DNA of 64,000 nt from Terfezia claveryi (Eukaryota > Ascomycota > Pezizomycetes > Pezizales > Pezizaceae). The translations under genes were made by a program, and so were the position numbers. Below the pieces are notes generated by a model. It was not told the DNA's origin, made no database searches, and saw only the letters and a program-made list of their open reading frames with translations. The stretch lies in NCBI GenBank assembly GCA_015179025.1, contig WHUX01000181.1, forward strand, positions 43,816 through 107,815, read 5' to 3'. This document shows positions 9,334 through 58,782 of the stretch, one piece after another. Numbering within the stretch: the stretch's first letter is position 1; each line of letters starts with the position of its first letter.

Positions 9334-11727
9334 CATCAGCAAAAAAAAATTGGTGTCAGGATGCACGACATCTTCCTATACGTCAGGTCGCTTCCCATCA
9401 TTTAGGTGGTTGCATCCTGTGCTTTCTGTCAGCCAGTTTGCATCCCGTGCTTCCTATACCTTCTGTAGTGAGGTTGCATCCTCTGGCTTGCACGTTGCGT
9501 CCCATGCTTCCTGTTAGCTAGGTTGCATCTCGTTCTTCCTATTAGTAAGGCTGTGTCCCCTACTATTCATATATTCATGGCCTCTATATATGAATGAGTT
9601 CATGTATTCGCAGCCTCTAACAATGTATGTATTTATACATATTTGGGGAGGCCATAAATGCATGAATTAAAGGCTGCGAATGCGCATATACACAGGGCAC
9701 GAAAACATGAATTCAATACATAATAAATCCCATGTTTAAATGTACTACATCCAGCTATTTCCCCCTCTGTACTAGATTGTTCACATAAGTAGAGGAGCTC
9801 CATTCGACGCCTTCTATAGAGCAGGTTCTTTAACAATGCCATGCAGGTTCTAAGACAGCACACGGAACAAGTTCTAAGACACATTAAGGGGCTGGGGGAT
9901 CTCCAAGCCAGACTAGCAAATCCCCTATTTCAAAAGTGTGGCCGCCTGGGACTTAGAGGTTTTTTCCTGTCATTCCTTCCTAAGGCCACCGCACCATCAT
10001 AGGGAGCTTGTTACGATGCTGATTTGTGGTCTCTGGAATGCGGACATCGAGGTTGATATGGTCGTTGATATTGAAGGCTCAGTAGGCAGCTCTGCACGCA
10101 GATATCTAGGCTGGTTTGCTCGCTAGATTCTAGGCTCATTTACATGGTGATTTCTAAGCTAATTTGCTCGATCAATTTCAGACTCATTTGCTCGCTCAAT
10201 TCCAGGCTCATTTGCTCGCTCGATTCTAGGCTCATTTGCTCACTGATATCCAGGCTCATTTGCTGGCTCGATTCCAGGCTCATTTGCTCGCTCGATTCCA
10301 GGCTCATTTGCTCGCTCATATCCAGGCTGATTTGCTCGCTCGATTCTAGGCTTTGCTCGGTGATATCTAGGCTCATTTGCTCGCTCGATTCCAGGCTCAT
10401 TTGCTCGCTCGATTCCAGGCTGATTTGCTCGCTCAATTCCAGGCTCATTTGCTCGCTCATATCTAGGCTGATTTGCTCGCTCGATTCCAGGCTGATTTGC
10501 TCCCTCAATTCTAGGCTTATTTGCTCGCTCGATTCCAGGCTCATTTGCTCGCTCAATTCCAAGCTCATTTGCTCGCTCATATCCAGGCTGATTTGCTCGC
10601 TCGATTCTAGGCTTTGCTCGGTGATATCTAGGCTCATTTGCTCGCTCGATTCCAGGCTCATTTGCTCGCTCGATTCCAGGCTGATTTGCTCGCTCAATTC
10701 CAGGCTCATTTGCTCGCTCATATCCAGGCTGATTTGCTCGCTCGATTCTAGGCTGATTTGCTCACTCGATTCTAGGCTCGTTTGCTTGGTGATATCCGGG
10801 CTCATTTGCTCGCTCATATCCAGGCTGATTTGCTCGCTCGATTCTAGGCTCGTTTGCTCGCTCATAGCCAGGCTGATTTGCTCGCTGTTATCCAGGCTGA
10901 TCTGCTCGCTCGATTCTAGACTTATTTGCTCGCTGATATCCAGGCTGATTTGCTCTCCCAATTCCAGGCTCATTTGCTAGTCGCTCGATTCCCGGCTCAT
11001 TTGCTCGGTGATATCCAGGCTGATTTGCTTACTTTACATGCTGATTTCTAGGTCGATTTGCACGGTGGATTCCAGGCTGATTTGCATCGCTGATTTCTAG
11101 GTCTATTTGCATGGGAGATTCCAGGCTGATTTGCACGATGATTTCTAGGTCGATTTGCCCGGTGGATTTCAGGCTGATTTGCAGGTTGATTTCTAGGTCG
11201 ATTTGCACGGTGGATACCAGGCTTATTTGCACGGTGATATGGCACTGATTTGGGCAGTGATTTTGGTTTTACACGTATTTAGCTAGCTAGTTTTAGAGAT
11301 ATTATCAGAATCAATTACATTTTTGGAAATGCATAGAATGCAGGTATCAAGCGCGATCGTAAGGCCGCGCCTATACTAGCCGACTATTTGCGTCAGATGG
11401 TGAACTTAAACATAGTGAGATTTTGCATGCGTACAGGAAGAACAATACTTCATGTGCATATGATATAATAGGTGCGTGTCATAAAATATAGATTTAAATT
11501 AGCTGCGCAGTGTAAGTATTATAAGATAGGTGTACATCAGGAAATATGGATTAAAATTAGTTGCATAGGGAAAGTATTATAAAATAATTGTGTATCAGGG
11601 AATATTAATTTAAATGATTTACGTCAGGACGAAGTGCATGGCTATAGTTGGCTTCTGAATCTCGAGTTTTGCAAAAGAGCTTCATGTGCTTCCGAAGCAC
11701 CTGACGCAAACTTTTTTTTTGCTGATA
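9334..11727. mobile_element. CATCAG-family element with 24-bp minisatellite (inverse copy of 35173-37076)
   Basis: It begins CATCAGCAAAAAAAAA and ends TTTTTTTTTTGCTGATA, flanked by GA at 9332-9333 and 11728-11729. The opposite arm of the host palindrome (near 19110) shows the unoccupied site with a single GA, which fixes the ends. It is the reverse-oriented sister of 35173-37076: its right-end block GCTTCCGAAGCACCTGACGC reappears, inverted, at that copy's left end. Its TIR is about 30 bp. The interior holds a 24-bp minisatellite and related 48-bp units. No protein-coding gene is evident, so it must depend on a transposase encoded elsewhere. Confidence 0.88.
10107..11036. repeat. 24-bp minisatellite, about 38 units
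   Basis: Tandem copies of the 24-bp unit CATTTGCTCGCTCGATTCCA plus GGCT, with CATTTGCTCG/GATTTGCTCG and GATTCCA/ATATCCA variants. Because the unit is a multiple of three and free of stops in one frame on each strand, both strands carry open frames of about 277 codons over the same DNA (10140-10973 minus, 10144-10980 plus). I regard these as by-products. Followed at 11037-11250 by about four 48-bp units alternating TTTCTAGGTCGATTTGC and TTCCAGGCTGATTTGC. Confidence 0.9.
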
Positions 11728-11979
11728 GAGTATATTAGTCTACCTAACTAGGTATAATCAATCCTACTTAGTACCATATATAGTAGTTAGATTGAGTATA
11801 CAACCTCAGAATAGTAATGTATACTAACTTAGGTACATTATAATAGGTATACTATACCTATATAGATAATATATATATTGGGCTAGAATATTATTTGAAC
11901 TTAGCTTTATATAGGTTAAGGTGAGATTTAAAACTCTTCTATTTGCTAGGTTCATATGTTATAAGAACACCTGCTTTTG

Positions 11980-12600
11980 AGGCTTATTATATATATAAGA
12001 AACTTATACTTTTAGAGACTTATCTATATAGTATATATATAAAAAACTTCTAATATTTGAGATATATATATATATATATATATAACTTGTACTTTTAAGA
12101 CTGTTCTAGATATATATAAAAAACTTATACTTTTAGAAACTTATATATATATATATATGAAACTCATATATTTAAAGACTTATATATATATATGCAAGAA
12201 ACTTATACTTTTGTAGCTATTCTAAATATATATAAAAAACTCATACTTATAAAAACTTATATATATATATATAAAAAACTTATACTTTTAAAAACTTATA
12301 TATGTATATATAAAAAACTTATACTTTTAAAAACTTATATATATATATATATAAGAAGCTCATACTTTTGTAACTATTCTAGATATATATAAGAAACTTA
12401 TACTTTTTGAAACTCATATATATTAAAAAGTATAAGTTTTTTATATATATATATATAAAATAGCTTCAAAAGTATGAGTTTTTTACATAAATATATATAT
12501 ATTCTAAAAAGTATAAGTTTCTTATATATATATATATAAGTCTCCAAAAGTATAAGTTTCTCATATATATAATAAGTCATAAAAGTAAATGTTCCTATAA
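11980..12600. repeat. RIP-mutated (TA)n-rich ~39-bp repeats at the apex of the large palindrome
   Basis: Repeated units of AAACTTATACTTTT followed by (TA)n in one direction up to about 12415, then in the reverse direction. They are the degraded counterpart of the 39-bp units at 31640-32460. Small open frames rich in Y-I-Y-I-Y-K-K-L are artefacts of the repeat. Confidence 0.8.
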
Positions 12601-12709
12601 TATATAAACTTAGTAAATAGAGAAGTTCAGTACCTTACCTTGACTTATATAAAGCTAAGTTTTTATAAGGTTTAAGCCTAATATAACTATTATTTATATA
12701 GATATAGTA

Positions 12710-13273
12710 TGTAACAACGGCTCTAGGGACAAGGCGACCAAGGGGTATACCGGGGCAGTGGCAAGGGGAAATCGCACATGTAGGAGCGCTATATGTATGA
12801 TCTGGGGAATGGTTAGGGGCAAGGCAAGGGCAGGGCTAGAGTAACACACACGTAGGAACGCTACGTATGTGACTGGAGAAGGCTGAGACAGGGGCAAGGG
12901 CAAGAGGCAAGAGAGGTAGAGGGCAAGAGGTATGAGACACGTGGAAGCAGTTGTCACATGTGTCGGAGGGAGGCAGCTGTACTGCAGAGCTATTCATAAG
13001 ACAAAGGGGTGCATAAGAGAGGTGCACAAGCATTGGGAGAGGCAAGGTCCTGTATTGAATATACAAGACATTGGATGGGGATCCAACGAGAGGGCGGAGA
13101 GAGCAAGCTATATATACAGGCTTCCTTCCTGGCCAAGGCCACCAGAAAGAATAAGGTTCCCGAGACCCCTTATCTCAGAAACAGAGATAACAATGATATT
13201 AATCAACAATAACGAGAGTTGGACGGAATCCTGTCTGACTCTCAAACCCAGCTAGGAAAGAACAGTTGTGACA
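12710..13273 (-). repeat. G1 3' LTR
   Basis: 564 bp, in sense TGTCACAACTG...GTTGTTACA. It matches 18427-18989 with scattered substitutions, many of them transitions, so insertion was not very recent. It ends at the polypurine tract of the internal region. Confidence 0.93.
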
Positions 13274-13499
13274 CTATCCCCCCTTTAGGCTCGGAGCCCC
13301 AGCGACGCAAGGCAAGGCGAAAAAGCAAACAAATAAGACAGGCGAATAACCAATAACCCATAACACAACCCCAATGCCGGAAGTACATACCAACAACAAT
13401 CATGACAACAACAACAATAACAACCCTAATAACCAATTCCAGGATGACAAGAACATCATTGGATGGGGCAGGGTTTCTAGAGGTAACGCTGGTAGAACA

Positions 13500-13740
13500 G
13501 GGTGACCAAGTCCTGTGCGTTTTCTAGATCTTCGGCTGGTTGCCAGGTCGTCTCCTCGTCCTTCAGCCATTTGACCTTATATTGCAGGCGTCCATATCTT
13601 CTTCGGGAGTCTAGCACTTCCTCTACCTCCTATTCCTCCTCACCTTCGATAACCATAGGAGGAGGTGGGGGGTGTTCCTGGCCTGGCAGAGGGTCGCTAG
13701 CGGTAGGCTCGATCTCGGAGACATGGACAACTAGGTGTCA
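13500..13740 (-). pseudogene. G1 chromodomain at the integrase C-terminus
   Basis: Minus-strand translation after the integrase core gives E-V-L-D-S-R-R-R-Y-G-R-L-Q-Y-K-V-K-W-L then T-T-W-Q-P-A-E-D-L-E-N-A, the conserved core of a chromodomain (aromatic cage region and W-x-P-x-x-x-L). Chromodomains on chromovirus integrases bind histone marks and bias insertion to heterochromatin. It is fused in series to integrase, in a frame broken by a stop just upstream, so it is listed as part of a damaged polyprotein. Confidence 0.85.
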
Positions 13741-14995: not shown

Positions 14996-15050
14996 ATCAG
15001 CCTCAGCCTCAGCTTCCGCATCAGCCTCAACATCAGCAAGGATATTGGCT
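14925..15050 (-). repeat. Hexanucleotide repeat encoding an (E/D-A)n acidic linker in G1 pol
   Basis: Plus-strand repeats of GCCTCAGCTTCAGCATCA type; in sense the frame reads alternating Glu/Asp and Ala for more than 30 residues between RNase H and the H2C2 finger. This junction is normally a plain linker. Confidence 0.9.
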
Positions 15051-15099
15051 GCCAGGTCAAGGTTTTCGGGCTTCTATACCACCTGATTTTGGTATTTTA

Positions 15100-17160: not shown

Positions 17161-17179
17161 AATGACCTGGAGCAGGTCC

Positions 17180-18390: not shown

Positions 18391-18426
18391 GACTGCGTAC
18401 CAGTTGGTCCAAAGGATCCAACATAG

Positions 18427-21183: not shown

Positions 21184-21815
21184 TGTAATGTATTGTTAGA
21201 GGGACTGGAAGATCAGATTAGATAAAATAAGAATCTTATCTAATCAGATAATCTTAGACTAGTAATATATACTACAAAGTAGATTACCAATAGTGTATTG
21301 TTTATTCTCACTATTAAAGTTATTACCAATAGCATAAGATTACTGTAATAGGTAAAGTAGTATAGGAGTACCAAAGGCATTTAGAAGATTAACTAGTGGA
21401 ACTTCTATATTGATTGTACTCTAACTATGTTCTGAGTTCTAACTGTCTCTGTCCAACTGAAGGGAAATTCAGGAGACTATATGTGTTTCTAACGGGGTAG
21501 TACTGGGGCAGTGCTGAGGCAGTGCATCATCATCTGACCCTTACATGTGATTGAGATCCACATCATCTGATCTTCTAGATAGTACTTCCAAATACTATCT
21601 AGTACAAAATAGGTTAAGTCTTAACTTTTGACTTATACATGTGAAAGCATATGATAATATGTGAAAGCATATGAAAGTATGTGAAATATTAGCAAGACAG
21701 ATAGCATACAGAATGTTGTGTGTTTTGAGATGCTTGCTAAGTAAGAAAATATATAAGAAATACATTTGTGAAGTAGAGAGTTAGTCATAGGGTATTGGTA
21801 AGCCACTTCCTTACA
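21184..21815 (-). repeat. G2 3' LTR
   Basis: 632 bp, sense TGTAAGGAAGTGGC...CATTACA. The adjacent polypurine tract in sense reads CAGGGAGGCA. Around 21410 it preserves GTGGAACTTCTATATTG, the unoccupied version of the site where 35173-37076 inserted in the other LTR. Confidence 0.93.
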
Positions 21816-27416: not shown

Positions 27417-27419
27417 CTT

Positions 27420-27760: not shown

Positions 27761-27794
27761 GTTTACCAGGGCCCCATTGCTTATCAGCCTTCTT

Positions 27795-28564: not shown

Positions 28565-28669
28565 TATATCAGCAAAAATAATATTTGCGTCCTGTGCATC
28601 AGACGCATGTAATCCATGGGACGATAACTCAAAATCAGGACGCGAACGCTTGTTGCGCCAGCGTCTTGA

Positions 28670-28930
28670 TGCACAGGGACGTTGCTTACATGCCTGGGAC
28701 GCAACACCAATTCTTGGCAGTTGCGCTTACGTCTAGGATACACTGTGACATTACTCACATGCCTGGGATGCAACACCAATGCTGGGCAGTTGCGCTTGCG
28801 TCTAGGATGCACTATGATGTTGCTCACATGCCTGGGACACAACACCAATGCTGGGCAGTTGCTCTCACATCTGGGACGCACTAGAACGTTGCCCCTATGC
28901 CTGGGACGCAAGCATATGTGCAATCTTTGT
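28670..28930. repeat. 69-bp tandem repeat in the left arm
   Basis: Three to four copies of a 69-bp unit containing CCTGGGACGCAACACCAATG and CTGGGCAGTTGCGC; the inverted counterpart is at 33120-33300. Spacing of 69 bp is seen between 28762 and 28831. Confidence 0.85.
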
Positions 28931-29588
28931 CCCAACACACTTGGTGGGTAAATACAACCCACTTACAGCTTGCATCTGCTTCGTTCTTACACCAGCCACC
29001 TATGTAGCCGAGTTTGCAACCTTTGAATATGTATGCAGCAGAAATATTCATTGTATTCGCCAATTATTATATATACAGAGAGGTATTTAGCAATAGATAT
29101 GGACATGGAACATGTGTGCAGCAACACTCGCTTTAACCCTTGGCCTAAGCTTCTCTCTAACTCTTGCTGTATCTATCGCTCTAACTCTCGGTGTAATGCT
29201 CGCTCTAATTCTCGCTCTAATGCTTTCTCTAATTCTCGCTGTAATATGCTAGAAATAATGCACAAAGGGAAAAAGCGCGGGGAAGGGAAGTATATATATA
29301 GGAAAACCATAGTTGATAAGGCCGACTGCTAAGGCCGACAATTTAGACTTTCCGAAGACAATGTGATAGGGGATAATAAGAGAAGTAGTACGACAGTGAT
29401 CAACGGCGCTCAGCCCCCCTTTCGCACGTGGGTGCCGCACTACTCAATGCCTGCCCTAGTAATAGTCATATTGGGAAATCGTAGTGGTAGTACTGCGAAC
29501 GAGACAAGTACTACAATATGTATGGAGTTCACGCTTTTTGATATATCCCGTAGGAATTTATGCATGTGCGGGCTTATATAAGTATATA

Positions 29589-31628
29589 TGTTCTGGTCCG
29601 TTCCAGGATCCAGGCCATACCAGTATGGCCCGGTCCATACCAGTATGGACTGGATATCGCAACGGACTAGGCCGTTACAGGATTAAATTGTTCAATGTCA
29701 CGGATAGCAACAAGGATTTACCACAATACTACAGTGGCCACAGCGACATTAAAAGTACTAAATAGGGACATATCCGATATGAAGGTAATTTTGTAGCAAT
29801 ATTTGGTCAAAGAACATCAGAGATAACATAAGTGACCTATCGAAGAAAATACTCAGTAGAGGTATACCCGAAATGAAGGTTATTATATAGAGAAACATTA
29901 GGTCAAAGAACAAGAGTTTGTAGCATGCGCAATAGTAGCCTCTAAAGATCACGATACCATAACTTCTTTGCAACAAACACAAGTGTTTTAACTATTGCTT
30001 TGCTTAATTACACTCTTACCGGTCTCTACAATATTACACTCTTACCACCAGTGGAAGCATGCAAAACACCATTATTTAGAGCCAGTGGAAGCATGAATTG
30101 CATGCATATATAGAGGCCGAAAAGCCATCATTTCTATATGTTTGTCTTCTCATTCGTTTCCCATATATGGGTATTTCCTACTTTGTTCTAGGTTTTGCCA
30201 ATTGCAGGAGGAGCCCCAACCGACTCGGCAGGATGATTGTAGGTAAAACATGTAATCTGGTTTTAAGACAGCGCCAGTCGATCCAATGGCTGGCGGCAAG
30301 ACACGGCAAGTCCCTATTTCCAAGGTATGCCCGGCTGGGACTTAGAGCTTTTCTCCTGTTCATTCCTTCCAAATAATTTTGCTCACTCAATTCTACCTGG
30401 TTTGCTCGCTCATTTTCTCGCTTATTTGCTTGCTCATTTTCTCGCTGATTTGCTTTCTCGATTCTAGGCTGATTTGCTCGCTCGATTATATGCTAATTTG
30501 CTCGCTCGATTCTAGGCTGATTTGCTCGCTTGATTATATGCTGATTTGCTCTCTTGATTATATGCTGATTTGCTCGCTCGATTATATGCTGAATTGCTCG
30601 CTCGATTCTAGGCTGATTTGCTCGCTTGATTATATGCTGATTTGCTCGCTCGATTATATGCAGATTTGCTCGCTCGATTATATGCTGATTTGCTCGCTCA
30701 ATTATATGCTGATTTGCTCGCTCGATTCTAGGCTGATTTCCTCACTCGATTATATGCTGATTTGCTCGCTCGATTCTAGGCTGATTTCCTCGCTCGATTC
30801 TATGCCAGTGGTGATTTCCTTACTCAATTCTCTGCTAATTTCCTTTCTCAATTCTAGGCTGATTTGCTTGCTCGACTCTATGCTGGTTTGCTCGCTTATT
30901 TTCTCGCTGATTTGCTTGCTCGATTCTAGGCTGATTTGCTCGCTCGATTGTATGCTGATTTGCTCGCTCGATTGTAGGCTGATTTTCTCGCTCGATTCGG
31001 TGATATTCTTGCGCAATTCTCTACTGATTTCCTTGCTCAATTCTAGGCTGATTTCCTCGCTCGATTCTAGGCTGAGTTGCTTGCTCAATTCTAGCGGATA
31101 TCCAGGTTAATATAGACAGTGAATTGCAGGTTCATATGGACGGCGAATCTAGGATTCTAGGGACACGGATGTGAAGGCTGGTACAGATGGGGGTTTTGGG
31201 GCGCAGCGTGTTAGATAGCCTTATTAGATAATCGTGAGAATAAAATGGATTATTTCAAAATGCATATAATGCAGGTGAACTACAAGAACAAGCACGGTAG
31301 CACGGGCGCGGATATGCTGGGAGACCATTTGCGTTGGAGTTTGGAATGGGATGGTGACTGCGTAGAGGGTAGAGGTTAAGGTAGACATGAATCTAGGAAT
31401 ATGGCATCAAATGATTTACGTTGGTTAGGCCAAATAAGTTGGGTGTGGGTAAGGAAATATAAGAAGATATAAATATTTATGCCATCCTGGAATGGCCTGG
31501 GTAATCTCGCAATCTCGCAATGGCCCGGTCCATACCAGTATAGGGGGCCATACCGGTATGGCCCGAGCAATCCTGGAACGGCCCGGTCTATACCGGTATG
31601 GCCTGGGATCCCGGAACAGACCAGAACA
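29589..31628 (+). mobile_element. TGTTCTGG-ended element at the apex of the 4.8-kb palindrome
   Basis: Inverted termini TGTTCTGGTCCGTTCC (left) and GGAACAGACCAGAACA (right) enclose 2.04 kb. It is inserted in a (TA)n run, so any target duplication, perhaps TA, cannot be resolved. Subterminal copies of the palindrome CCATACCGGTATGG (or one-base variants) occur at both ends. The interior has a two-unit repeat ending GGTCAAAGAAC (29760-29910) and a 24-bp minisatellite. Sister copies are 50560-51976 and from 61890. No transposase is visible, so it is non-autonomous. Confidence 0.85.
30379..31095. repeat. 24-bp minisatellite in the TGTTCTGG element
   Basis: About 30 copies of GATTTGCTCGCTCGATTATA plus TGCT and GATTTGCTCGCTCGATTCTA plus GGCT. 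The unit is the same as in the CATCAG-family element at 10107-11036, though the two element types have unrelated ends. The repeated Leu-Ile-Cys-Ser-Leu-Asp frames here are not considered genes. Confidence 0.9.
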
Positions 31629-31639
31629 TATATATACGA

Positions 31640-32460
31640 GAAACCTATGTGCTCGCTACTCATATTTATATATGCGAGAAATCCATGCATTTGCGGGCTT
31701 ATATATATATATATATGTGAGAAATCTATGCATTCACGGGCTTATATATATATATGTGCGAGACACACGTGCTTTTGGAGACTTATATATATATATGTGA
31801 GACACTCGTGCTTTTGGAGACATATATATATATGTATTCGAAACTCACGCTTTTGGAGACATATATATATATGTGTGAGAAACTCGTGCTTTTAGAGACA
31901 TATATATATATATTGGAGAAATCCATGCATTCGCGGGCTTATATATATATATATGCGAGAAACTTATACTTTTGGAGACATATATATATATGTGCGAGAA
32001 ACTGGTGCTTTTGGAGACATATATATATATATTGGAGAAATCCATGCATTCGCAGGCTTATATATATATATATGCGAGAAACTCATGCTTTTGGAGACAT
32101 ATATATATATGTGCGAGAAACTCGTGCTTTTGGAGACATATATATATATATTGGAGAAATCCATGCATTCGCAAGCTTATATATATATATATATGAGAAA
32201 CTTGTGCTTTTGGAGACATATATATATATGTGCGAGAAACTCGCGCTTTTGGAGACATATATATATATGTGTGAGAAACTCGTGCTTTTGGAGACATATA
32301 TATATATATTGGAGAAATCTATGCATTCGCAGACTTATATATATATATGTGAGAAATCCATGCATTCACAGACTTATATATATGTATGCAAGAAATCCAT
32401 ACATTCGCAGGCTTATATATATATGCGAGAAACTCATACTTTTGGGACATATATATATAT
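31640..32460. repeat. 39-bp (TA)n-rich repeats
   Basis: Some 20 units built from GCGAGAAACTCGTGCTTTTG, GAGACA and (TA)n, interspersed with GAGAAATCCATGCATTCGCG units. Exact 39-bp spacing, for example CTTTT at 32246 and 32285, keeps a frame of 13 codons open for 240 codons. The same units appear in every long palindrome in the window. Confidence 0.9.
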
Positions 32461-33379
32461 GTCTATGAATGTATAAATTCCTACGGGATATTTTACAAAG
32501 TGTGAACTCCGTACATATCGCAGTACTTGTTTCATTTGCAATACCACGACTACGATTTCCCAATATGACTATTACCAGGCCAGGCATTGAGTAGTATGGC
32601 ACCCGTGTGCGAAAGGGAGGCTGAGGGCCATTGATCACTGTCATGCCACTTCTCTTATTATCCCCTATCTCATTGTCTTCGGAAAGTCTAAATTGTCAGC
32701 TTAGCAGTCGGCCTTAGCAACTATGGTTTTCCTGTATATATACTTCCCTTCCCAGTGCTTTTTTCCTTTGCTCATTATTCCTAGCATATTACAGTGAGTA
32801 TTAGAGAGAGCAGAAGAGCGAGAATTAGAGCGAGCATTAGAGCGAGAGTTAGATCGATGGATACAACGAGAGTTAGAGTGAAGCTTAAGCCAAAGGTTAG
32901 AGCGAGTGTTGCTGCACACATGTTCTGTGTATATATCTATTGCTAAATACCTCTCTGTATATATAATAATTGGTGAATGCAATGAATATTTCTGCTGCAT
33001 GCATATTCAAAGGTTGCAAACCCGGCTCCATAGCTGGCTGCTATAAGAACGTAGCAGATGCAAGCTGTAAGCGGGGTGTGTTGACCCACTAAGTGCGTCG
33101 AGATAAAGGTTGTATGTATGCTTGCATCCCAGGCATGGGGGCAACATCCCAGTGTATCCCAGATATGAGATCAACTGCCCAGCATTAGTGTTGCGTCCCA
33201 GGTGAGGGGGCAACGTTCCAGTGCGTCCAGATGCGAGAGCAACTGCCCAGTATTGGTATTGTGTCGCAGGCAAGGGGGCAACGTTCTAGTGCGTTCAGAC
33301 GTACAGGATGCACAGGACGCAAACTCATGTCCGGACGCTTGGTGGTACATCCTGACAAACATTTTTTTTTGCTGATATA

Positions 33380-34693: not shown

Positions 34694-35172
34694 ATACAGT
34701 TGTTATTGCCCTCTTATGTTGTTTTGCTACTATTTGTAGGCTTTTACTAGTTGCTATTTATTGAATAGTTTTACTGTTGCTATTTGGAGGATAGTTTTAC
34801 TGCTGACTGTAGGACTTTGTACTACTATGTATTATGCTGTAGGCTTATACTGGCTCTAGTTTCTACTCTTGTTGGTAGAAACTTTGTTGATTAGGTAAGG
34901 TTGATTAGGCCTTCCTAGTTAGGTAAGTATCAAGTTCTTAGGTTAAAAAAATGTAATGTATTATTAGAGGGACTAGAAGATTAGATTAGATAAGATAAAG
35001 ATCTTATCTAATCAGATAATCTCAGGCTAGGAATGTATACTACAAAGTAGATTACCAATAGTATATTATTTATTCTCCCTATTAAAGTTATTACCAGTAG
35101 CATAAGATTACTGTAATAGGTAAACTAGTATAGGAGTGCCAAAGGTACTTAGAAGATTAACTAGTGGAACTT

Positions 35173-37076
35173 CATCAGCAAAAAAAAAGTTTGCATTAGG
35201 TACTTCGGAAGCACATGAAGCTCTTTTGTAAAATTCGAGATTCAGAAGCTAACTATAGCCATGTGCTCCATCCTGACACAAATCATTTAAATTAATATTT
35301 CCTGACACACAATTATTTTATAATACTTTCCCTTTGCAACTAATTTTAATCCATATTTCCTGATGTACAACTATCTTATAATACTTATACTGCACAGCTA
35401 ATTTAAATCTATATTTCATGACACGCACCTATTATATCATACACACATGAAGTATTGTTCTTCCTGTACACATGCAAAATCTCACTATGTTTAAGTTCAC
35501 CATTTGATGCAAATAGTCGGCTAGTATAGGCGCCACCTTGCAATCGCGCTTAATACCTGCATTCTATGCATTTCCAAAAATGTAATTGATTCTGATAATA
35601 TCTCTTAAACTAGCTAGCTAAACACATGTAAAACCAAAATCACTGCCCAAATCAGTGCCATATCATCGTGCAAATCAGCCTGGTATCTACCGTACAAATC
35701 GACTTAGAAATCAACCTGCAAATCAGCCTGGAATCCACTGGGCAAATCGACCTAGAAATCAGCATGCAAATCAGCCTGGAATCTACCATGCAAATCGACC
35801 TAGAAATCAGTATGCAAATCAGCCTGGAATCCACCATGCAAATCGACCTAGAAATTAGCATGCAAATGAGCCTGGAATCGAGCGTGCAAATCAGCCTAGA
35901 TATCACCAAGGAAATGAGCCTGGAATCGAGCGACTAGCGAATGAGCCTAGAATCGAACGAGCAAATCAGCCTGGAATCGAGTGAGCAAATGAGCCTGGAA
36001 TTGGGCGAGCAAATTAGCCTGGATATCGGCGAGCAAATTAGCCTAGAATCGAGCGAGTAGATCAGCCTAGATATCAGCGAGCAAATGAGCCTAAATATCA
36101 GTGAGCAAATGAGCATGGATATCAGTGAGCAAATGAGCCTGAAATTGAGCGAGCAAATGAGCCTGGAATCGAGCGAGCAAATTAGCCTGAAATTGAGCGA
36201 GCAAATGAGTCTGGAATTGAGCGAGCAAATTAGCTTAGAAATCACCATATAAATGAGCCTAGAATCCAGCGAGCAAACCAGCCTAGATATCTGTGTGTAG
36301 AGCTGCCTACTGAGCATTCAATATCAACGACCATATCAACCTCGATGTCCACATTCACGAGACCACAAATCAGCGTCGTAACAAGCTCCCTATGATAGTG
36401 CGGTGGCCTGAGAAAGGAATGTCAGAAAAAAACCTCTAAGTCCCAGGCGGCCACACTTTTAAAATAGGGGATTTGCTAGTCTGGCTTAGAGATTCCCCAG
36501 CCCCTTAATATGTCTTAGAACTTGTTCCATGTACTGTCTTAGAACCTACATGGCATTGTCTAAGAACCTGCTCTATAGAAGGTGTCAAATGGAGCTCCTC
36601 AACTTATGTGAACAATCTAGTACGGAGGGGGAAATAGCTGGATGTAGTACATTTAAACATGGGATTTATCATGTATTGAATTCATGTTTTCGTGCCTTGT
36701 GTATATGTGCATTCGGGCCTTTAATTTATGCATTTGTGGCCTCCTCAAATATGTATAAATATATATATAGTCAAAGGCTGCGAATGCATGAACTCATACA
36801 TATATAGAGGCCGTGAATATATGAATAGTAGGGGATACAGCCTTGCTAATAGGAAGCACGAGAGACAACCTGGCTAAAAGAAAGCATAAGACGCAACGTG
36901 CAAGCCAGAGGACGCAACCTCGCTAACAGAAAGTACAGGATGCAACCTTACTGACAGGAAGCATGGGACGGCAACTGCATGATAGGAAGTATAGGACGCA
37001 ACCACCTAAATAATGGGAAGCGACCTGATGCATATGAAGATGTCATGCGTCCTGACACAAATTTTTTTTGCTGATG
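35173..37076. mobile_element. CATCAG-family element in the G2 LTR
   Basis: It begins CATCAGCAAAAAAAAAGTTTG and ends AATTTTTTTTGCTGATG, with TT target duplications (35171-35172, 37077-37078) verified against the intact LTR at 21184-21815. TIRs of about 30 bp agree with the sister at 9334-11727, of which it is the inverted orientation. Internal features are 48-bp units at 35670-35930 and the 24-bp minisatellite at 35930-36290. No gene is apparent. Confidence 0.92.
35930..36290. repeat. 24-bp minisatellite, about 15 units
   Basis: Inverted version of the 10107-11036 array (unit AGCCTGGAATCGAGCGAGCA plus AATG). This copy has far fewer units, so the array expands or contracts between otherwise similar elements. 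Confidence 0.9.
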
Positions 37077-37513
37077 TTCTATATTGATTGTACTCTAACT
37101 ATGTTCTAAGTTCTAATGGTCTCTGTCCAACTGAAGGGAAATTTAGGAGACTATATGTGTTTCTAATGAGGCAGTGCTAGAGTAGTGCTAAGGACGTGCA
37201 CCATCATCTGACCCTTATATGTGATTGAGATCAATATCATCTGATCTTCTAGATAGTACTTCCAAATACTATGTAGTACAAAATAGGTTAAGTCTTTACT
37301 TTTGACTTATACATGTGAAAGCATGTGATAACATGTGAAAGCAGGTGATAATATATGAAAGCATGTGAAAGCATGTGAAATATTAGCAAGGCAGACAGCA
37401 CACAGAATGTTGTATGTTTTGAGATGCTTGCTGAGTAAGAAAATACATAAGAAATACATTTGTGAGGGAGAGGGTTAGTTATAGGGTATAGTAAGCCACT
37501 TCCTTATATTTCT

Positions 37514-39182: not shown

Positions 39183-39189
39183 ACATATA

Positions 39190-39735: not shown

Positions 39736-39745
39736 TTGTATGCAA

Positions 39746-48397: not shown

Positions 48398-49109
48398 TGG
48401 CATCTGACGCCTTAGGTGCCACTAATGACAAACTGCCAGTTACCGGTGCGCTCCGCTGTTTCTCTGTCTCCCCGATGCTGGCTCTTCACAGGCTGCCTGC
48501 TGACGCTGGCACCACATGGTCCTCCTCCTGACCCTGACGTTCCTGCACAATCATCAGGAACGAGCTCTGACGCTATGTCTTAGGAGGTACCGCCCTGGCG
48601 CCGTGTTTTCTGAGGTGCCGCCATGATGCATGTCTTTAACATGGATGCCCTGGCACAACTACCTGATAGGCAAACCACTGTGTATACTCAGAGCATGGAG
48701 GTGATAGCAGCTATACATTGCAAGAACTATATACGTTTGAATTTCTATATACATAGCTGAGCTATAGATGCACTTCCAATGAACCATTCCCTCATGCATC
48801 CCACTTGAACTTATCCTGTGCATATGCCTCCAAAAATCCTAGCGGTTCCCTGATCTGAGCCGTCTGCAAAGTCGTTATCGCCATGCTTTGATCTAATAAT
48901 ATCCATATAGCTATTAACAACAGAACGCTGATATCGCGAGACTGCACATGCCTAGAGCTACCCAATTGCTAGCTGATGTAGTCATCCACTGCCATGAGCA
49001 ATGCCTATTACTAGAGCAATTAGCTATGCATTCACATAAAGTCCGTGGATTTGCTGGCGAGTTTATGTACCTAGGTATGTCTATGCATATAGATGGGGAA
49101 TATCTCGGG

Positions 49110-49985
49110 AGTGCACTTGCGGAGTCCTAAGAGCAATTAGCTATACCTTCACATACAGTCCGCTAGTTTTCTGGCGAGTTCACGTACCTGGCTATGCCTG
49201 TATCTGCGCATATAGATTGGGGATATATCGGAACTGCACTGGCGGAGTCCGTAGAGCAATTAGCTAGAGTCCGCTGGTTTTCTGGCGAGTTTACGTACCT
49301 AGCTATACCTGTGTCTACGCATATAGATTGGGGATATATCGGAACTGCACTGGCGGAGTCCTAAGAGCAATTAGCTATACATTCATATAGAGTCCGCTAG
49401 TTTTCTGGCGAGTTCACGTACTTGGCTATGCCTGTGTCTACGCATATAGATTGTGGATATATTGGAACTGCACTGGCGGAGTCCTAAGAGCAATTAGCTA
49501 TACATTCACATAGAGTCTGCTGGTTTTCTGGCCAGTTCACATACCTGGCTATGCCTGTGTCTGCGCATATAGATTGGGGATATATCGGAACTGCACTGGC
49601 GGAGTCCTAAGAGCAATTAGCTATACATTCACATAGAGTCCGCTGGTTTTCTGGCCAGTTCACGTACCTGGCTATACTTGTGTCTGCGCATATAGATTAG
49701 TGATATATCAGAACTGCACTGGCGGAGTCCTAAGAGCAATTAGCTATACATTCACATAGAGTCCGCTGGTTTTCTGGCCAGTTCACGTACCTGGCTATGC
49801 CTGTGTCTGCGCATATAGATTGGGGATATATCGGAACTGCACTGGCGGAGTCCTAAGAGCAATTAGCTATACATTCACATAGAGTCCACTGGTTTTCTGG
49901 CGAGTTCACGTACCTAGCTAGCTATGTCTCCGCATATAGATGGGGGATATCTCAAGAGTGCACTGGGGGAGTCCTAACCTCAGCT
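49110..49985. repeat. 123-bp tandem repeat, left arm (about 7 units)
   Basis: Units of GGAACTGCACTGGCGGAGTC ... GTCCGCTGGTTTTCTGGC spaced about 123 bp (for example 49478, 49600, 49723, 49848). The inverted array of about three units is at 53035-53400; the window start carries about six. Copy number therefore differs between the arms of one element. Confidence 0.92.
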
Positions 49986-50900
49986 TGACCTACCGCCGAC
50001 TAGCTGGTTGAGTTACCTATGCAAAGAGGGGGTGCACGTGCTCTCATGTTTTGTTCGTTCACGCATGCCTGAAAATATGTCTCTGTTGACGCAGCCGACA
50101 AATATGTGTGATTGGCGGGAAGGCAGATTGGCACACGCTGGTGTGACAGATTAGCACATGCATGTTTCAGGCCATATATACCCGCCAGCCGTGAGATTAC
50201 CGAAGTGGGTAATAGGTATGAAAAAGGAGCCCTCATGGCAGGCTTGTAAATATGGACTTGTTTATTCGAGAAACTCATGCTTTGAGACTTATATATATAT
50301 ATATGCGGGAAACTCGTGCTTTGGAGATATATATATATATATATGCGAGAAACTCGTGCTTTGAGACTTATATATATACTCATGCTTTTCGAGGCTTCCA
50401 GATATATATGCGAGAAACTCATGCTTTGAGACTTATATATATATATATACTAGAAACTCATGCTTTTCGAGGCTTATATATAGAAATGTGAGAAACTCAT
50501 GCTTTTCGAGGCTTATATATATATATGTGGGAAACTCGTGCTTTGGAGATATATATATATGTTCTGGTCCGTTCCGGGATCCAGTCTATACCGGTATGGC
50601 CTGGTCCATACCGGTATGGACTGGATATAGCAACAGACCAGGCCGTTACAGTATGGCTGGATATTGCAATGGACCAGGCCGTTACGGGATTAAATTGTTC
50701 AATGTCATGGATAGCAACAAGGATTTACCACAATCACAGCGGCCACAGTGGCCACAGCGACATTAAAATTACTAAATAGGGACATATCCGATATGAAGGT
50801 AATTTTGTAGCAACATTTGGTCAAAGAACATTGGAGATTACATAAAATGACCTATCGTAGAAAATACTCAGTAGAGGTATACCCGAAATGAAGGTTATTA

Positions 50901-51089
50901 TGTGGCGACCTAAGAAGTAGTGTGATGGCGCTCGTAGTATAGTGAACTGGGGTAACTCGTTTTGCCTTTTGACATAAGTGTCTTTCTTAGCGACCGCTCC
51001 AGGGATCGAGACTCCTTTTTTTCTATAACCTTTAATACAACTATGATCTTTGCCCGAGTAGTGATCGTTGCCAAATCAGGGTGACCACA
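50901..51089. mobile_element. 189-bp insert with TGTGG...CCACA ends
   Basis: Starts TGTGGCGACCTAAG and ends CAGGGTGACCACA, imperfect inverted ends. It replaces about 600 bp present in the sister elements. It could be a short solo LTR or a MITE; no target duplication is visible (left ATTA, right TCGA). Confidence 0.45.
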
Positions 51090-51109
51090 TCGACGTCAAC
51101 CTCAGTTAC

Positions 51110-51535
51110 CTTATATGCTGATTTGCTCGCTCGATTCTAGGCTGATTTCCTTGCTCGATTCTATGCCAGTGGTGATTTCCTTGCTCAATTCTCTGGTGAT
51201 TTTCTCTCTCAATTCTAGGCTAATTTGCTTGCTCAATTCTACGCTGGTTTGCTTGCTCATTTTCTCGCTGATTTGCTCCCTCAATTGTATGCTGATTTGC
51301 TCGCTCGATTGTAGGCTGATTTCCTCGCTCGATTCGGTGATATCCTTACTCAATTCTCTGCTGATTTCCTTGCTCAATTCTAGGCTGATTTCCTCGCTCG
51401 ATTCTTGCTCATTTGCTTGCTCGATTCTAGGCTGATTTGCTCGCTCTATCCTAGGCTGATTTCCTCGCTCGATTCTAGGCTGATTTGCTCGCTCGATTCT
51501 AGGCTGATTTGCTTGCTCAATTCTAGCGGATATCA
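51110..51535. repeat. 24-bp minisatellite
   Basis: About 17 units of GATTTGCTCGCTCGATTCTA plus GGCT, with GATTTCCTT variants. Same unit as in 30379-31095. Confidence 0.9.
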
Positions 51536-54130
51536 GGCTAATATGGACAGTGAATTGCAGGCTCATATGGACGGCGAATCTAGGATTCTAGGGAGGCGAA
51601 TGTGAAGGCTGGTACAGATGGGGGTTTTGGGGCGCAGCGTGTTAGATAGCCTTATTAGATAATCATGAGAATAAAATGGATTATTTCAAAATGCATATAA
51701 TGCAGGTGAACTACAAGAATAAGAGGGGCTATGCTGGGAGACCATTTGTGTTGGAGTTTGGAATGGGATGGTGACTGTGTAGAGGGTAGAGGTTAAGGTA
51801 GACATGAATCTAGGAATATAGCATCAAATGATTTACGTTGGTTAGGCCAAATGCATAAGGAAATATAAGAAGATATGAATATTTATGCCATCCTAGAACG
51901 GCCTGGGTAATCTCGCAATCTCGCAACGGCCCGGTCCATACCGGTATGGCCTGGAATCCCGGAACGGACCAGAACATATATATATATGCGAGAAACTCGT
52001 GCTTTGAGACTTATATATATACTCATGCTTTTCGAGGCTTCCAGATATATATACGGGAAACTCGTGCTTTGGAGATATATATATACTCATGCTTTTCAAG
52101 GTTTCTAGATATATATGCGAGAAACTCATGCTTTTGAGGCTTATTAGTATATATGCGGGAAACTCGTACTTTGGAGATATATATAAATATATGCGAGAAA
52201 CTCGTGCTCTTGAGGCTTATTAGTATATATGCGGCAAACTTGTGCTTTGGAGATATATATATATACATGCGAGAAACTCGTGCTTTGAGACTTATATATA
52301 TACTCATACTTTTTGAGGCTTCCAGATGAAACTAACGATGGGTTTCTCGCATATATATATATATAAGTCTCAAAGCATGAGTTTCTCACATATATATCTA
52401 GAGGCCTTGAAAAGCATGAGTATATATATATCTCCAAAGCACGAGTTTCCCGCATATATATATATAAGCCTCGAAAAGCATGAGTTTCTCGCATATCTAT
52501 ATATAAGCCTCGAAAAGCATGAGTTTCTTACATATATATATATATAAGCCTCAAAGCATGAGTTTCTCAATAAATATATATAAGCCTCGAAAAGCATGAG
52601 TTTCTCGCATATATATCTGGAAGCCTCAAAAAGCATGAGTATATATATAAGTCTCAAAGTACGAGTTTCTCGCATATATATATATATATATCTCCAAAGC
52701 ACGAGTTTCCTGCATATATATATATATAAGTCTCAAAGCATAAGTTTCTCACATAAACAAGTCTATATTTACAAGCCTGCCATAAGGGCTCCTCTTCCAT
52801 ACCTATTACCCACTTCGGTAATCTCACGGCTGGCGGGCATATGTGGCCTGAAATATGCATGTGCTGATCTGTCACACCAGAGTGCGCCAATCTGCCTTCC
52901 CACCAATCACATATATTTGTCGGCCGCGTCAACCAAGATATATTTCCAGGCATGCCTAAACGAACATAACACGAGAGTACGTGCGCCCCCTCTTTGCACA
53001 GGTAACTTAACCAGCCAGTCGGCGGCAGGTCAAGCTGAGTTTAGGACTCCCCCAGTGCACTCTCGAGATATCCCCCATCTATATTCGGAGACATAGCTAG
53101 CTAGGTACGTGAACTCGCCAGAAAACCAGCGGACTCTATATGAATGTATAGCTAATTGCTCTTAGGACTCCGCTAGTGCAGTTCCGATATATCCCCAATC
53201 TATATGCGCAGACACAGGCATAGCCAGGTACGTGAACTGGCCAGAAAACCAGCGGACTCTATGTGAATGTATAGCTAATTGCTCTTAGGACTCTGCCAGT
53301 GCAGTTCTGATATATCCCCAATCTATATGCGCAGACATACCTAGGTACATGAACTCGCCAGCAAATCCACGGACTTTATGGGAACGCATAGCTAATTGCT
53401 CTAGTAATAGGTATTGCTCATGGCAGTGGAGGACTACATCAGCCAGCAATTGGGTAGCTCTAGGTATGTGCAGTCTCGCGATATCAGCATTCTGTTGTTA
53501 ATAGCTATATAAATATTATTAGATCAAAGCATGGCGATAATGACTTTGCAGACAGCTCAGATCAGGGAACCGCTAGGATTTTTGGAGGCATATGTGCAGG
53601 ATAAGTTCAAGTGGGATGCATGAGAGAATGGTTCATTCGAAGTGCATCTATAGCTTAGCTATGTATATAGAAATTCAAACGTACATAGTTCTTGCAATGA
53701 ATAGCTGCTATTACCTCCATGCTCCGAGTGCACACAGTGGTCCACCTATCAGGTAGTTGTGCCAGGGCATGGATATACACACGCACCATGGTGGCACCTC
53801 GGAACACAAGGTGCCAGGGAGGTACCTTGGAAAATATGGCGCTCGAGCGACACAAGGGCTAGGGTTCCTAGAGTGCGCAGCTAGAAGAGGGCAATTGTCA
53901 GGGCGCCTGGTGATGGTGTTGTAGCATCAGGGCGACCTGACGCACAAGGCAGGTCAGGTAGAAGATAGTCTGTCAGGGTGCCGGGAGCGGGCGTTGCGGC
54001 ACAGAAATATATATCCTGATGCACCAGAAGTGGCGTCGGGGCGACCTAACGCAGAGGGCAGGAGAGGTACAAGGTGGTCCGTCAGAGCGCCTGCAGGGGG
54101 CGTTGCGGCACAGAAATATCTATCCTGATA

Positions 54131-55200
54131 TATAAGAGAATGGGGATGGATCTCAAGAATGGAATACATACCTACTCATAATTTCGCGATGTGGTGTTCG
54201 GACACATACTAGTATTAAAAAATGAAAGCGGAGAGATAATAGTTGGAGCTATGGAATCCCTTATTAGAGACCATTGGGATTGGGCATGTGACGGTATAAT
54301 TGACGATACATTTTCATCGCAAGTAGATTGGGAAACTGAATAAGAGGTGTGGCATAATATGATTTTTCCTAGGATTGCATTTGGCCCTATATACCTAAAA
54401 GGAACAAAGTGTATCTTCAGTATGATAAAATTGGACATAACGGGAATAGAAGGATTGTGGCAAGGATTGAGACCATTATTGGAAAAACAGAGCAAAATGG
54501 GAAATTGGCCTACACTAAGCTCAAGAGCAGATATAAAGGCATTTACATACTTAACACCCTTCTTGAGGAGATTTATTCCAGGAAGGACAGAACATGTGCG
54601 AATAATGAAACAAGTATATACAACAGAAAGTAGAGAAGAGAAGGATACTTTTGAATGGGGGCCGGATCAAGAGGCATCATTTAATTGGATAAAAAGGGCG
54701 ATATTGGAAAATGCATGCCTGGGCTCCGACGAAAACTTACAATATTACTTGTCCTCAGATGCGAGCAAAACTGGGATAGGAGGGGTGTTGTTTCAACTTC
54801 CAGAAGTAAAACTGGGGACCACAGCAGGTAACAAGCATAAAGACAATATGCGTATTGTAATGTTCATGTCGTTCAAACTATCAAAGGCAGAGAGTAAGTA
54901 TTTCATAAAGGAAAGAGAAGGGTTAGCAGTAATGCAGAATTTGGATAAATATGCATGGCTAGTTAAGGGATCAAGATAGCCAGTAAAGATATACACAGAT
55001 CATTATGCGCTGGTATCGATAATGGGAACTAATACAAAAGATGCTCATAGGAGGTTGGCCAGATGGCAAGACAGACTAACAGAATATGACTATGAGATCA
55101 TACATAAGGCAGGAGTAGATCACTATATGAAATTAGTAGATGGACTGAGTAGGCTACCATCAGAGTACTGCAATGATTTTAGGGGAGATCTATCAGACTG
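54131..55200 (+). pseudogene. G3 reverse transcriptase (end) and RNase H
   Basis: Reads Y-K-R-M-G-M-D-L-K-N-G, H-T-Y-S-stop-F-R-D-V-V-F-G, then P-F-L-R-R-F-I-P-G-R, F-E-W-G-P-D-Q-E-A-S-F, and RNase H L-S-S-D-A-S-K-T-G-I-G-G-V-L (54752), F-I-K-E-R-E-G-L-A-V, I-Y-T-D-H-Y-A-L, Y-E-I-I-H-K-A-G. Stops at 54178 (Gln), 54343 and 54977 (Trp) interrupt it. The YxDD box is not recognisable in the expected place, where the frame reads H-W-D-W-A-C-D-G-I-I-D-D, so it seems degenerate. Confidence 0.85.
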
Positions 55201-55750
55201 ATTGACAATATGCATGAGTAGAAGGTTAATGGGAAAGCAAAATAAAAAGGAAATGGGGGAAGGAGATATAGAAGATAGTATAACAGAAGAAGAAAAAGAA
55301 TGGTATGGCAGGATAAAGAAAATACATTTAAGAATAGGACACCATAGGAGAGAAAACATAGAAGGGAAAAACAAAGGAGTAGAGGTAAAAGAAGGAAGGG
55401 AAGAGACAGAAGTAAGAGATAAAGGAATAGAGCTAGGAAATACAAGGGAGAAGGAAGAAAGGGAAGTAATTAGGGAAGGAATGGAAGAGATAAGGGGAGA
55501 GGAGAAAGGACAAGCGGAGGAGATAATAGAGGAATGGGAAGAACAGAAAGAAGAAATAGAAAGGAAAGGGAGGGATAAAGTAGAGGACATTATGGAGAAA
55601 TTCAGACAATCAGCATGGTATAAGAATATAATGATATATGTGACAAAGGGGATAGATGGATTAGTAGAGGAAGGATTGAGCAGGAATGTAAGGAAGGTGG
55701 TAGCTAACAAAGGGCAAAGATATATGCAGATGAATGAAGAGCTATTCTAG
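55200..55750 (+). pseudogene. G3 pol Glu/Lys-rich linker
   Basis: About 180 codons dominated by E, K, R and I (for example K-E-G-R-E-E-T-E-V-R-D-K and E-E-W-E-E-Q-K-E-E-I-E), predicted helical, ending M-N-E-E-L-F next to a stop at 55748, then the integrase. No known domain. It is parallel to the extra linker regions of G1 and G2 at the same place. Confidence 0.7.
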
Positions 55751-56259
55751 AGGGAAAGAGATGGCTTGTTATCAAAGTGTATTCTGGAGGATGAGAGGGA
55801 GGAAATAATGAAAGAATTGCATGACAGTCATGGACATTTTGTAGGAGGACTGACAATCGGGAGAGCAATTGGGAGGTATTATTGGCCAACAAGAGAGAAG
55901 GACATTTGGTGGTACAGTATGTTATGTGAGACGTGCCAAAGAGTAGGTTCTCGACGGATATCTGGGGAACTGAAACTGATCATACAATTCAAACCACTCG
56001 ATATAATAGGCATGTACTATGTGGGTCCGATTTTACCTGCATGCAAGAAGACCGGATACAGATATATCCTGATTATGGTAGACTATTTCTCACGATTTGT
56101 GTTCATGAAAGGATTTGGGGAGGCAAATCAAATCTCCACACTGACAATGTTCTTTGAGAATGTTGTACCAATTTTCGAATAGCCTATGTCAATATACTAT
56201 GACAATGGTACACACTTTATGGGCTCGGAGGTGCAGGATACATTGAGAGCGGTTAGGGT
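55750..56259 (+). pseudogene. G3 integrase, first part
   Basis: H2C2 finger: L-H-D-S-H-G-H-F then L-C-E-T-C-Q-R-V (about 55815-55940). Catalytic Asp in I-M-V-D-Y-F-S-R-F (codon 56081) and Y-Y-D-N-G-T-H-F (codon 56201). A stop (TAG for Trp) lies at 56180. The core is cut after A-V-R by the element 56260-58782 and resumes at 58783. Confidence 0.9.
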
Positions 56260-58782
56260 CATCAGCAAAAAGAAATATGCATTAGGACGCACCACCAAGC
56301 ATCCGGACGCGATTTTACGTCCTGTGCATCCTGTGCATCCGAACGCCCTAGGGTATTGCATTACAATCCGGATGCAACTAGGGCCCCGCACTGCGTAGTA
56401 ATACCTTCCTGACGCTATTGGGGCCCCGTAAGCCGTCCGGACAGTGGTTGACATAAGCTCAACGTCTGGATGTCAGAGTTCATTGCCATCACATCATCAA
56501 CTCAATTGAGGTTGTTAACGCTATAGGTTCCATGTCTGGTGTTACTGAACCAGGGCCCCAAATCGCTCTCTTCTACAATGCACACCCGCTACCAACTTGC
56601 ATCTATGACGCTCTATCACCAGCCAGCTACGTAGCCACTATTGCAGCCATTGAATATGTACGCAGCGGAAATATCCATTGTATTCGCTAATAATTATATA
56701 CACAGAAGTATTGAGCAATAGATATATATATAGAACATGTAATCGCTGTAATACTCGCTTCAATACTCGCTCTAATACTCGCCCTAATACTCGCTCTATT
56801 ACTCGCTCTAATGCTCGCCATAATGTGCTGAGATATAGAGTGAAGGGAAAATGCGCGGGGAGGGAGGTATATAAACAGGAAAACCATAGTTGCCAAGGCC
56901 GACTGCTAAGGCTGACAATTTAGACTTTCCGAAGACAATGAGATAAGGGATAACAAGAGTGGCATGACAGTGATCAATGGCGCTCAGCGCCCTTTTACCT
57001 GCGGGTGCCATACTATTCAATTAGTCTCATGCCTATTCAATGCCTGGCCTGGTAATAGTCATATTGGGAAAACGTAGTCGTCGTATCGAGATATGTACAT
57101 AGTTCACGCTTTGTGATATGTTTCGTAGGAATTCATACATTCGCGGGCATATATATATATATATATATATGCAAGAAACTCGTGCTTTTGAAGACATATA
57201 GAGAAATACATGCATTCGCGGGCATATATATATATATGTGCGAGAAACTCGTGCTTTCGGAGACATATATATATATATGCGAGAAACTCGTGCTTTTGGA
57301 GATATATAGCGAAATGCATGCATTCGCGGGCATATATATATATACATCTGCGAGAAACTCGTCCTTTTGGAGACATATAGAGAAATGCATGCATTCGCAG
57401 GCATATATATATATATGTGTGAGAAACTCGTGCTTTTGGAGACTTATATATATATGTGCGAGAAACTTGTGCTTTTGGAGACTTATATATATATGTGGGA
57501 GAAACTCGTGCTTTTGGAGACTTATATATATATGTGCGAGAAACTCGTCCTTTTGGGATATATATATATGTATGCGAGAAACTCATGCTTTCACTGTCTG
57601 GTTGAGACGGCCACAATATATATAAGTCTCCAAAAGCATGAGTTTCTTGCATATATATATATATATATGAGCCCGCGAATGCATGGATTTCTCGCGCATA
57701 TATATATCTGTCTCCAAAAGCATGAGTTTCTCGCACATATATATATATATGCCCGCGAATGCATGGATTTCTCACACATATATATATTTATGCCCGCGAA
57801 TGCATGGATTTCTCGCATATATATATATATAAGCCCGCGAATTCATGGATTCCTACGAAACATATCACAAAGCATGAACTCCGCACATATCCCAATACCA
57901 TGACTATGATTTCCCAATATGACTATTACCAGGCCAGGCATTGAATAGTACGGCACCCGCGGGCGAAAGGGGGCTGAGCGCCATTGATTACTATTATGCC
58001 ACTTCTCTTGTTATCCCTTATCTCATTGTCTTCGGAAAGTCTAAATTGTTGGCCTTAGCAGTCGGCCTTGGCAACTATGGTTTTCCTGTATATATACCTC
58101 CCTTCCCCGCGTATTTTCCCTTCGTTCTATATCCCAGCACATTACGGCGAGCATTAGAGCGAGTAATAGAGCGAGTATTAGGGCGAGTATTAGAGCAAGT
58201 ATTAGGGCAAGTATTAGAGCGAGTATTGGAGCGAGTATTGGAGCGAGTATAAAAGCGAGTATTGGAGCGAGTATTAAAGCGAGTATTACACCGATTGCAT
58301 GTTCTATATATATATCTATTGCTCAATACTTTTGTGTATATAATTATTAGCGAATACAATGGATATTTCCACAGCGTGCATATTCAATGGCTGCAATAGT
58401 GGCTACGTAGCTGGCTGGTGTTTAGAGCATCGTACATACAAGCGGTGAGCGGGTGTGCATTGTAGAAGAGAGCGATTTAGGGCCCTGGTTCAGTAACGCC
58501 AGACGTGGAACCTATAGCGTTAGGGATGAGCAGCCCATCCCATATTGCGTCCAAGAAACAGTAGCATACTTCTGTTGCGTCCCAGGCCTGGGAGCACACT
58601 TGTGTTGCGTCCTGGGCGCTGGTGCACACGAGTGTTGCATCCCGACGCTGGTGCGCACGAGTGTTGCGTCCCGACGCTGGTGCACCAAGCGTTTGGCGTC
58701 TTGATTGTAAGTTCCTGTCCTATGCGTCCTGTGCGTCCGACGCATAGGAAGACACAAGACGGGAATATTTTTTTTGCTGATG
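56260..58782. mobile_element. Complete 2.5-kb palindromic CATCAG-family element in G3 integrase
   Basis: Starts CATCAGCAAAAAGAAATATG and ends TATTTTTTTTGCTGATG, with GT duplications (56258-56259, 58783-58784). Deletion of the element and one GT restores the integrase frame and places 35 residues between the second Asp and the Lys/Glu position, exactly the DD35E spacing. Two arms (about 56440-57590 and 57620-58490) are inverted copies, containing 12-bp and 39-bp repeats. The apex around 57600 is only TCTGGTTGAGACGGCC; no TGTTCTGG element is present. No coding gene. Confidence 0.95.

Follow-up and report, generated by a model that had tools for sequence, protein, structure and literature searches.

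The window analysed here is a stretch of 64,000 nucleotides from the desert truffle Terfezia claveryi (Pezizales; contig WHUX01000181.1, positions 43,816 to 107,815; contig C92 in our numbering). It contains four copies, W1 to W4, of a repeat with inverted ends starting in [C/T]ATCAGC, and each copy has the same two bases on both sides, see Table 1. The copies are rich in minisatellites and fall into three groups, A, B and C, by their ends. They are very probably non-autonomous DNA transposons of the PlavakaB lineage, which is related to CACTA/EnSpm. The original prediction, made from the letters of the window alone, had described the same four copies as a coding-free family with 2-bp target duplications. 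Their ends, coordinates and the flanks GA, TA, TT and GT were all checked and are correct.

Table 1. Elements, target duplications and other features discussed in the text. Positions are those of the window unless a locus is named.
Feature	Position	Strand	Remarks
W1	9334..11727	.	group A, putative non-autonomous element, 2394 bp; recognised by ends, flanks and empty site
W1 target duplication GA, left copy	9332..9333	+	right copy 11728-11729
W2	28567..33377	.	group B, putative non-autonomous element, 4811 bp, of which 2 kb are a nested insert
W2 target duplication TA, left copy	28565..28566	+	right copy 33378-33379
Separate stretch nested in W2	29590..31627	.	L026 and L015, also of group B, lack it
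W3	35173..37076	.	group A, putative non-autonomous element, 1904 bp
W3 target duplication TT, left copy	35171..35172	+	right copy 37077-37078
W4	56260..58782	.	group C, putative non-autonomous element, 2523 bp, foldback interior
W4 target duplication GT, left copy	56258..56259	+	right copy 58783-58784
W4 left end	56260..56443	+	matches one end of L022 (184 bp, 84% identity)
W4 right end	58665..58782	+	matches the opposite end of L022 (118 bp, 92% identity)
Broken group C copy	872..2786	-	one terminus present, at 2786; the opposite one was not found
Right half of another group C copy	2787..3957	+	adjoins the 872..2786 copy
Copies of the GTTCTGGTCCGTTCC...GGAACGGACCAGAAC family	29590-31627; 50561-51975; 61890 (one end); L027 1627-3765; L021 1110-2174
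Second open reading frame (ORF2) of the coding elements	L049 6050-7312; L022 4505-5617	+	direction opposite to the transposase

For each copy the two flanks were joined without the element and without one copy of the duplication, and homologues of this uninterrupted target were sought. Empty sites were found at the DNA level for all four copies, none of them with a gap at the junction itself. Those of W1 and W3 lie in the window, at 19264-18988 (277 bp, 79% identity) and at 21256-21554 (299 bp, 91%), the latter being the other long terminal repeat (LTR) in the account given by the original prediction. W2 has three empty sites (L058, L059 and L060; 295-298 bp, 92-93%); L058 is gap-free, and the alignments of L059 and L060 contain small gaps away from the junction, one in L060 about 12 bases from it. 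W4 has two, both gap-free (L061 and L062; 299 bp; 91% and 88%). The uninterrupted homologues thus establish that exactly two bases were duplicated at all four copies, as had been proposed. The target of W3 is one copy of the repeat that was earlier taken for an LTR.

The 2-bp duplication was then scored over the genome (72.56 Mb, 794 contigs). The 12-base end YATCAGCAAAAA occurs at 512 sites, 260 forward and 252 reverse, against 7 (4 + 3) for the reversed pattern. All 22 adjacent plus/minus pairs within 10 kb that arise from the first 100 of the 512 sites were taken together with the four window copies, giving 26 pairs picked by their ends alone. An exact 2-bp duplication is present in 23 of the 26. 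L016 has a 3-bp match instead (CAA), and two pairs have neither: L014 (CG/CC), which is probably a copy of the L012 site since its flanks resemble those of L012, and L021 (AA/AC). Crossing left flanks with the right flanks of other elements gives an expectation of 1.5 of 26, and 20,000 shuffles of the flanks, in which some pairs can stay intact, gave 2.3 matches on average and never more than 11. When both flanks are moved outward by 1 to 10, only 0 to 4 matches are found, and the third base is identical in 5 of the 23, which is the chance level. The duplications comprise 14 dinucleotides (TA five times, GA three times, three found twice and nine once). The genome-wide scoring against shuffled controls, suggested with the original prediction, therefore bears out both a duplication of two bases and its lack of restriction to TA.

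The original prediction had also proposed to search for a longer element that combines these ends with a transposase gene, and two such elements were found, L020 (9171 bp, target site duplication (TSD) CA) and L022 (8279 bp, TSD TT). They are 96.5% identical end to end, except for a stretch of about 0.9 kb in L020 that holds a minisatellite. Four of their seven scanned open reading frame (ORF) pieces match PF18759, the Plavaka family, with 40-183 bits against a curated cut-off of 26.3 (best E-value 1.1e-53), and the other three, which are C-terminal or on the opposite strand, have no Pfam match. In the genome, PF18759 matches at least 127 stretches.

Another coding family was opened at four places (contigs C19, C645, C794 and C112), where the copies are 99.0-99.5% identical over more than 8.6 kb. 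At C19 the element is 9881 bp long with the ends CATCAGCAA and TTGCTGATG, and TA is found on both sides in three of the four copies. It contains open frames of 279 and 698 amino acids, both PF18759 (157 bits), and a frame of 421 amino acids on the other strand. With copies that are 99% identical, this 9.9-kb C19 family is probably young. A further Plavaka family, of which L052 is a copy, is 79% identical to L022 over the longest stretch.

The distance from the transposase domain to a listed end in the expected orientation was measured for 17 Plavaka matches on contigs C1-C56. Five of them have a correctly oriented end 1836-1852 bp beyond the domain, and a sixth (C31, i.e. L020) has one at 2775 bp because of the insert in L020. 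Random placement, for which contig sizes were known for 6 and roughly guessed for 9, yielded 0.01 such cases on average and at most 1. In six-frame pattern scans of 12 loci, which are 11 distinct elements as L029 and L052 are the same, every locus showed the patterns of the first D and of the E, 11 showed CxxC and 10 showed HLISH, the patterns of a locus being sometimes spread over more than one frame. All four patterns are present in 10 loci; L031 is without HLISH, and L034 without CxxC and HLISH. The second D was caught by the pattern used in only 5 of 12. The D, D and E residues are the presumed catalytic ones.

The groups were made from the ends and from all-against-all matches. Group A consists of W1, W3, L009, L010 and L017, with L016 less closely related; group B of W2, L011, L012, L014, L015, L018 (two copies), L024, L026 and L027; and group C of W4, L013, L019, L021, L023, L025, L027b and L028. 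The ends of group C match L022 and L020 on both sides. In group B, the ends of W2 match those of L022 over 86 bp (83%) and 147 bp (71%). On one side, six compared group B copies are 84-94% identical to the end of L052 over 83-84 bp (three copies 93-94%, L011 90%, W2 and L024 85%), and this same side is 79-92% identical to L022 over 85-88 bp; the other side is 71-75% identical to L022 over about 147 bp. Group B thus has a Plavaka relative, and one or another of the coding families may drive it. The motif GCGTCC, picked by eye from the ends and counted in either orientation without a shuffled control, reaches 3-16 copies in the two 250-bp end stretches of elements from groups B and C, 10 in L020 and 15 in L022, compared with 0-0.5 per 250 bp in the interiors. 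Group A ends have 1-5 copies and the C19 family has none in the terminal 250 bp.

The description of the window copies as coding-free also stands. On inspection of the frames, which were not scanned against Pfam, the long ORFs within them resemble read-through of tandem repeats, and none of the 127 listed PF18759 matches, for which the best candidates were scored, lies on the window contig. In W1 a 24-bp unit forms a minisatellite at 10108-11029, and 48-bp units form an array at 11042-11238. The 24-bp unit recurs in W3 and in the insert nested in W2; W2 and W4 share an AT-rich unit of 39 bp. W2 and W4 have long internal inverted repeats, and at the setting used none was found in W1 or W3. Tandem repeats arising in or carried by transposons have been described before in minisatellite-bearing DNA elements, as the accessible text of PMC9659126 has it.

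The original prediction had held that no superfamily could be assigned. This can now be revised, as elements with the same ends code for a Plavaka transposase above the cut-off, with D..D..E and, between the second D and the E in the pattern scan, C(2)C and H(3-4)H. These motifs characterise Plavaka transposases, which are related to EnSpm, according to the text available of Kojima 2025 (PMC12730594), where PlavakaB is defined by CATCA..TGATG termini and 2- or 3-bp TSDs, and PlavakaA by TGT..ACA termini and 2-bp TSDs. The 26 pairs have the PlavakaB termini by selection ([C/T]ATCAGCA), and L020, L022 and the C19 family have them as well; the duplications are of 2 bp, with the single one of 3 bp. 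Given these coding elements and the published definition, we assign the window copies to PlavakaB. PlavakaA is similar in its transposase and its 2-bp TSDs but differs in its termini. It is well supported that we are dealing with a new set of families of a known superfamily and not with a new superfamily.

Compared with the PlavakaB described in the available text of PMC12730594, the likeness extends to termini, duplications, a Plavaka transposase inside elements with such ends and the C-x2-C and H-x3-H motifs. In contrast, the window copies have no transposase, and the host is an ascomycete truffle, whereas the Plavaka reconstructions given there are from Agaricomycotina. No TET/JBP match was found in the 7 + 4 ORF pieces of the coding elements scanned against Pfam, the genome not having been searched for it. 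The coding elements here also carry a second conserved ORF, which the same available text does not mention for Plavaka. Its section on Ascomycota (3.3) treats TET-bearing Helitron and IS3EU only, and "Terfezia" is absent from the main text. The Plavaka elements of Marasmius oreades (PMC8290104 and PMC9674265, in their accessible parts) are likewise defined by PF18759 but have a basidiomycete host; according to PMC8290104, the motifs of their terminal inverted repeats are characterised in its supplement. Among the listed matches of a literature search on Plavaka, which left subscription journals and supplements outside, no title concerned Terfezia or non-autonomous Plavaka families.

Several observations count against a PlavakaB origin of all the copies. 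The transposase frames are interrupted in both L020 and L022, the tip of L052 is itself mutated, and the flanks of the C794 copy in the C19 family are unequal (GT/TA), the right one being common to C645. For 11 of the 17 Plavaka matches there is no listed end within 4 kb. The placement within PlavakaB draws on ends and TSDs, not on a tree. A further difficulty concerns group A: W1 and W3 share only the terminal 32-36 bp or so with L020 and L022, their ends have few GCGTCC repeats, and a search for a Plavaka-coding element with such ends, in which one candidate (C221) was fetched, found none. One could therefore argue that group A comes from another superfamily and that its tips have converged on those of PlavakaB. 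Yet the tip CATCAGCAAAAA and the 2-bp TSDs are common to groups A, B and C, and the likeness extends past the tip, as the right ends L010_R and L017_R are 92-94% identical to L022 over 36 bp. We consider convergence very improbable. C221 was rejected as the autonomous partner of group A; it consists of a 2.0-kb group A copy, which has AT on both sides and is outside the 26 pairs, and a separate, broken C19-family copy.

Known superfamilies other than Plavaka are unlikely. Tc1/mariner duplicates TA, which accounts for 5 of the 23 duplications here, and Mutator does not fit the duplications of the family either, so that both remain set aside as originally proposed. For hAT, a hAT-like translation was read in the group A copy L009, but Pfam gave no hAT match, and the gene belongs to a 2.9-kb insert nested in L009 that has ends of its own and, as judged by eye at the junctions, an 8-bp duplication TTCCAAGC; the outer TSD of L009 is the 2-bp TA, and with the third base at chance level the 8-bp (5-8 bp) duplication of hAT is not seen. 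An assignment of the family to hAT is almost certainly wrong. A canonical CACTA/EnSpm identity deserves slightly more attention, since Plavaka transposases are related to EnSpm (PMC12730594, available text) and the frequent GCGTCC near group B and C ends resembles CACTA subterminal repeats. The ends are however not CAC(TA), the TSD is of 2 bp and not 3, and the transposase matches PF18759, which makes this identity highly unlikely. The original prediction had dismissed CACTA-like elements by their ends; this holds for CACTA proper, but not for the CACTA-related PlavakaB, which has CATCA..TGATG ends and 2- or 3-bp TSDs.

We suggest that the PlavakaB copies of the window could be moved in trans. 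The copies keep what a transposase would likely need, namely tips of CATCAGC as well as subterminal repeats, the latter chiefly in groups B and C. The longer elements would supply a Plavaka DDE transposase that excises and inserts the copies by cut-and-paste, possibly up to the present. At insertion the target would be cut with a stagger of 2 bp and only slight preference for particular sequences, and gap repair would then leave the 2-bp duplication. Non-autonomous CACTA/EnSpm elements are comparable in having short subterminal repeats and a related transposase, and differ by their tip sequence and 3-bp TSDs.

The second ORF of the coding elements, ORF2, runs opposite to the transposase. In a two-sequence comparison, ORF2 of the C19 family is 32% identical to its counterpart in L022 over 366 positions (E-value 4e-47). 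A protein search, in which the 8000 candidates with most words in common were scored, gave 38 proteins; wherever an organism is given, it is Terfezia boudieri or T. claveryi, and the protein is named hypothetical or uncharacterised. The match of ORF2 to PF24465, a tri-helical domain, is below threshold (20.7 bits against 27), and three of the 38 homologues carry this label. That two diverged families of Plavaka have both conserved ORF2 suggests that the protein acts together with the element. A role as helper is a guess, and binding to the subterminal repeats is speculation. TnpA of En/Spm recognises subterminal repeats, and it can be imagined that the truffle PlavakaB is a two-component system of this kind. 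In such a system, a DDE transposase would be joined by an opposite-strand ORF2 protein recognising the repeats (of GCGTCC type in the L022 family and a different repeat in the C19 family), and passengers filled with minisatellites would have arisen on such ends on more than one occasion. We regard this as doubtful, and slightly more so because the C19 family has ORF2 while lacking GCGTCC in its terminal 250 bp.

With the assignment to PlavakaB, a repeat family whose 12-base end is present at 512 sites of the genome acquires a name and a transposase. The 26 end pairs and the four empty sites also support, in an ascomycete, the recently published PlavakaB signature of ends and 2-bp duplications. 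The C19 family with its conserved ORF2 lends itself to studies of the movement of Plavaka elements.

The original prediction was incomplete in that the window also holds two broken relatives of the family and the 2-kb insert nested in W2. The relatives, at 872-3957, are both of group C, one apparently inserted in reverse into the other. The inner limit of the 872..2786 copy is approximate because its interior is an inverted repeat, and the far end of the inner copy is apparently lost near a 123-bp tandem array at 162-870. The same 123-bp repeat occurs at two other places in the window, 49013-49977 and 53041-53402.

The insert in W2 has the ends GTTCTGGTCCGTTCC...GGAACAGACCAGAAC (GTTCTGG...CCAGAAC) and is one copy of a second element-like family without evident genes, with ends GTTCTGGTCCGTTCC...GGAACGGACCAGAAC. 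Each copy lies within an (AT)n stretch, which would hide any target duplication. Two group members were set aside as carriers of a transposase: the large L019, in which copia-like ORFs, judged from their translations, were taken as nested or foreign, and L009, whose hAT-like gene was taken in the same way. The nested hAT-like element of L009 spans element positions of about 1259-4120, with the apparent 8-bp duplication TTCCAAGC seen by eye. Finally, L018 (C17:123752-129762) consists of two group B copies 91 bp apart in minisatellite-like DNA, with TSDs of TG and TA.

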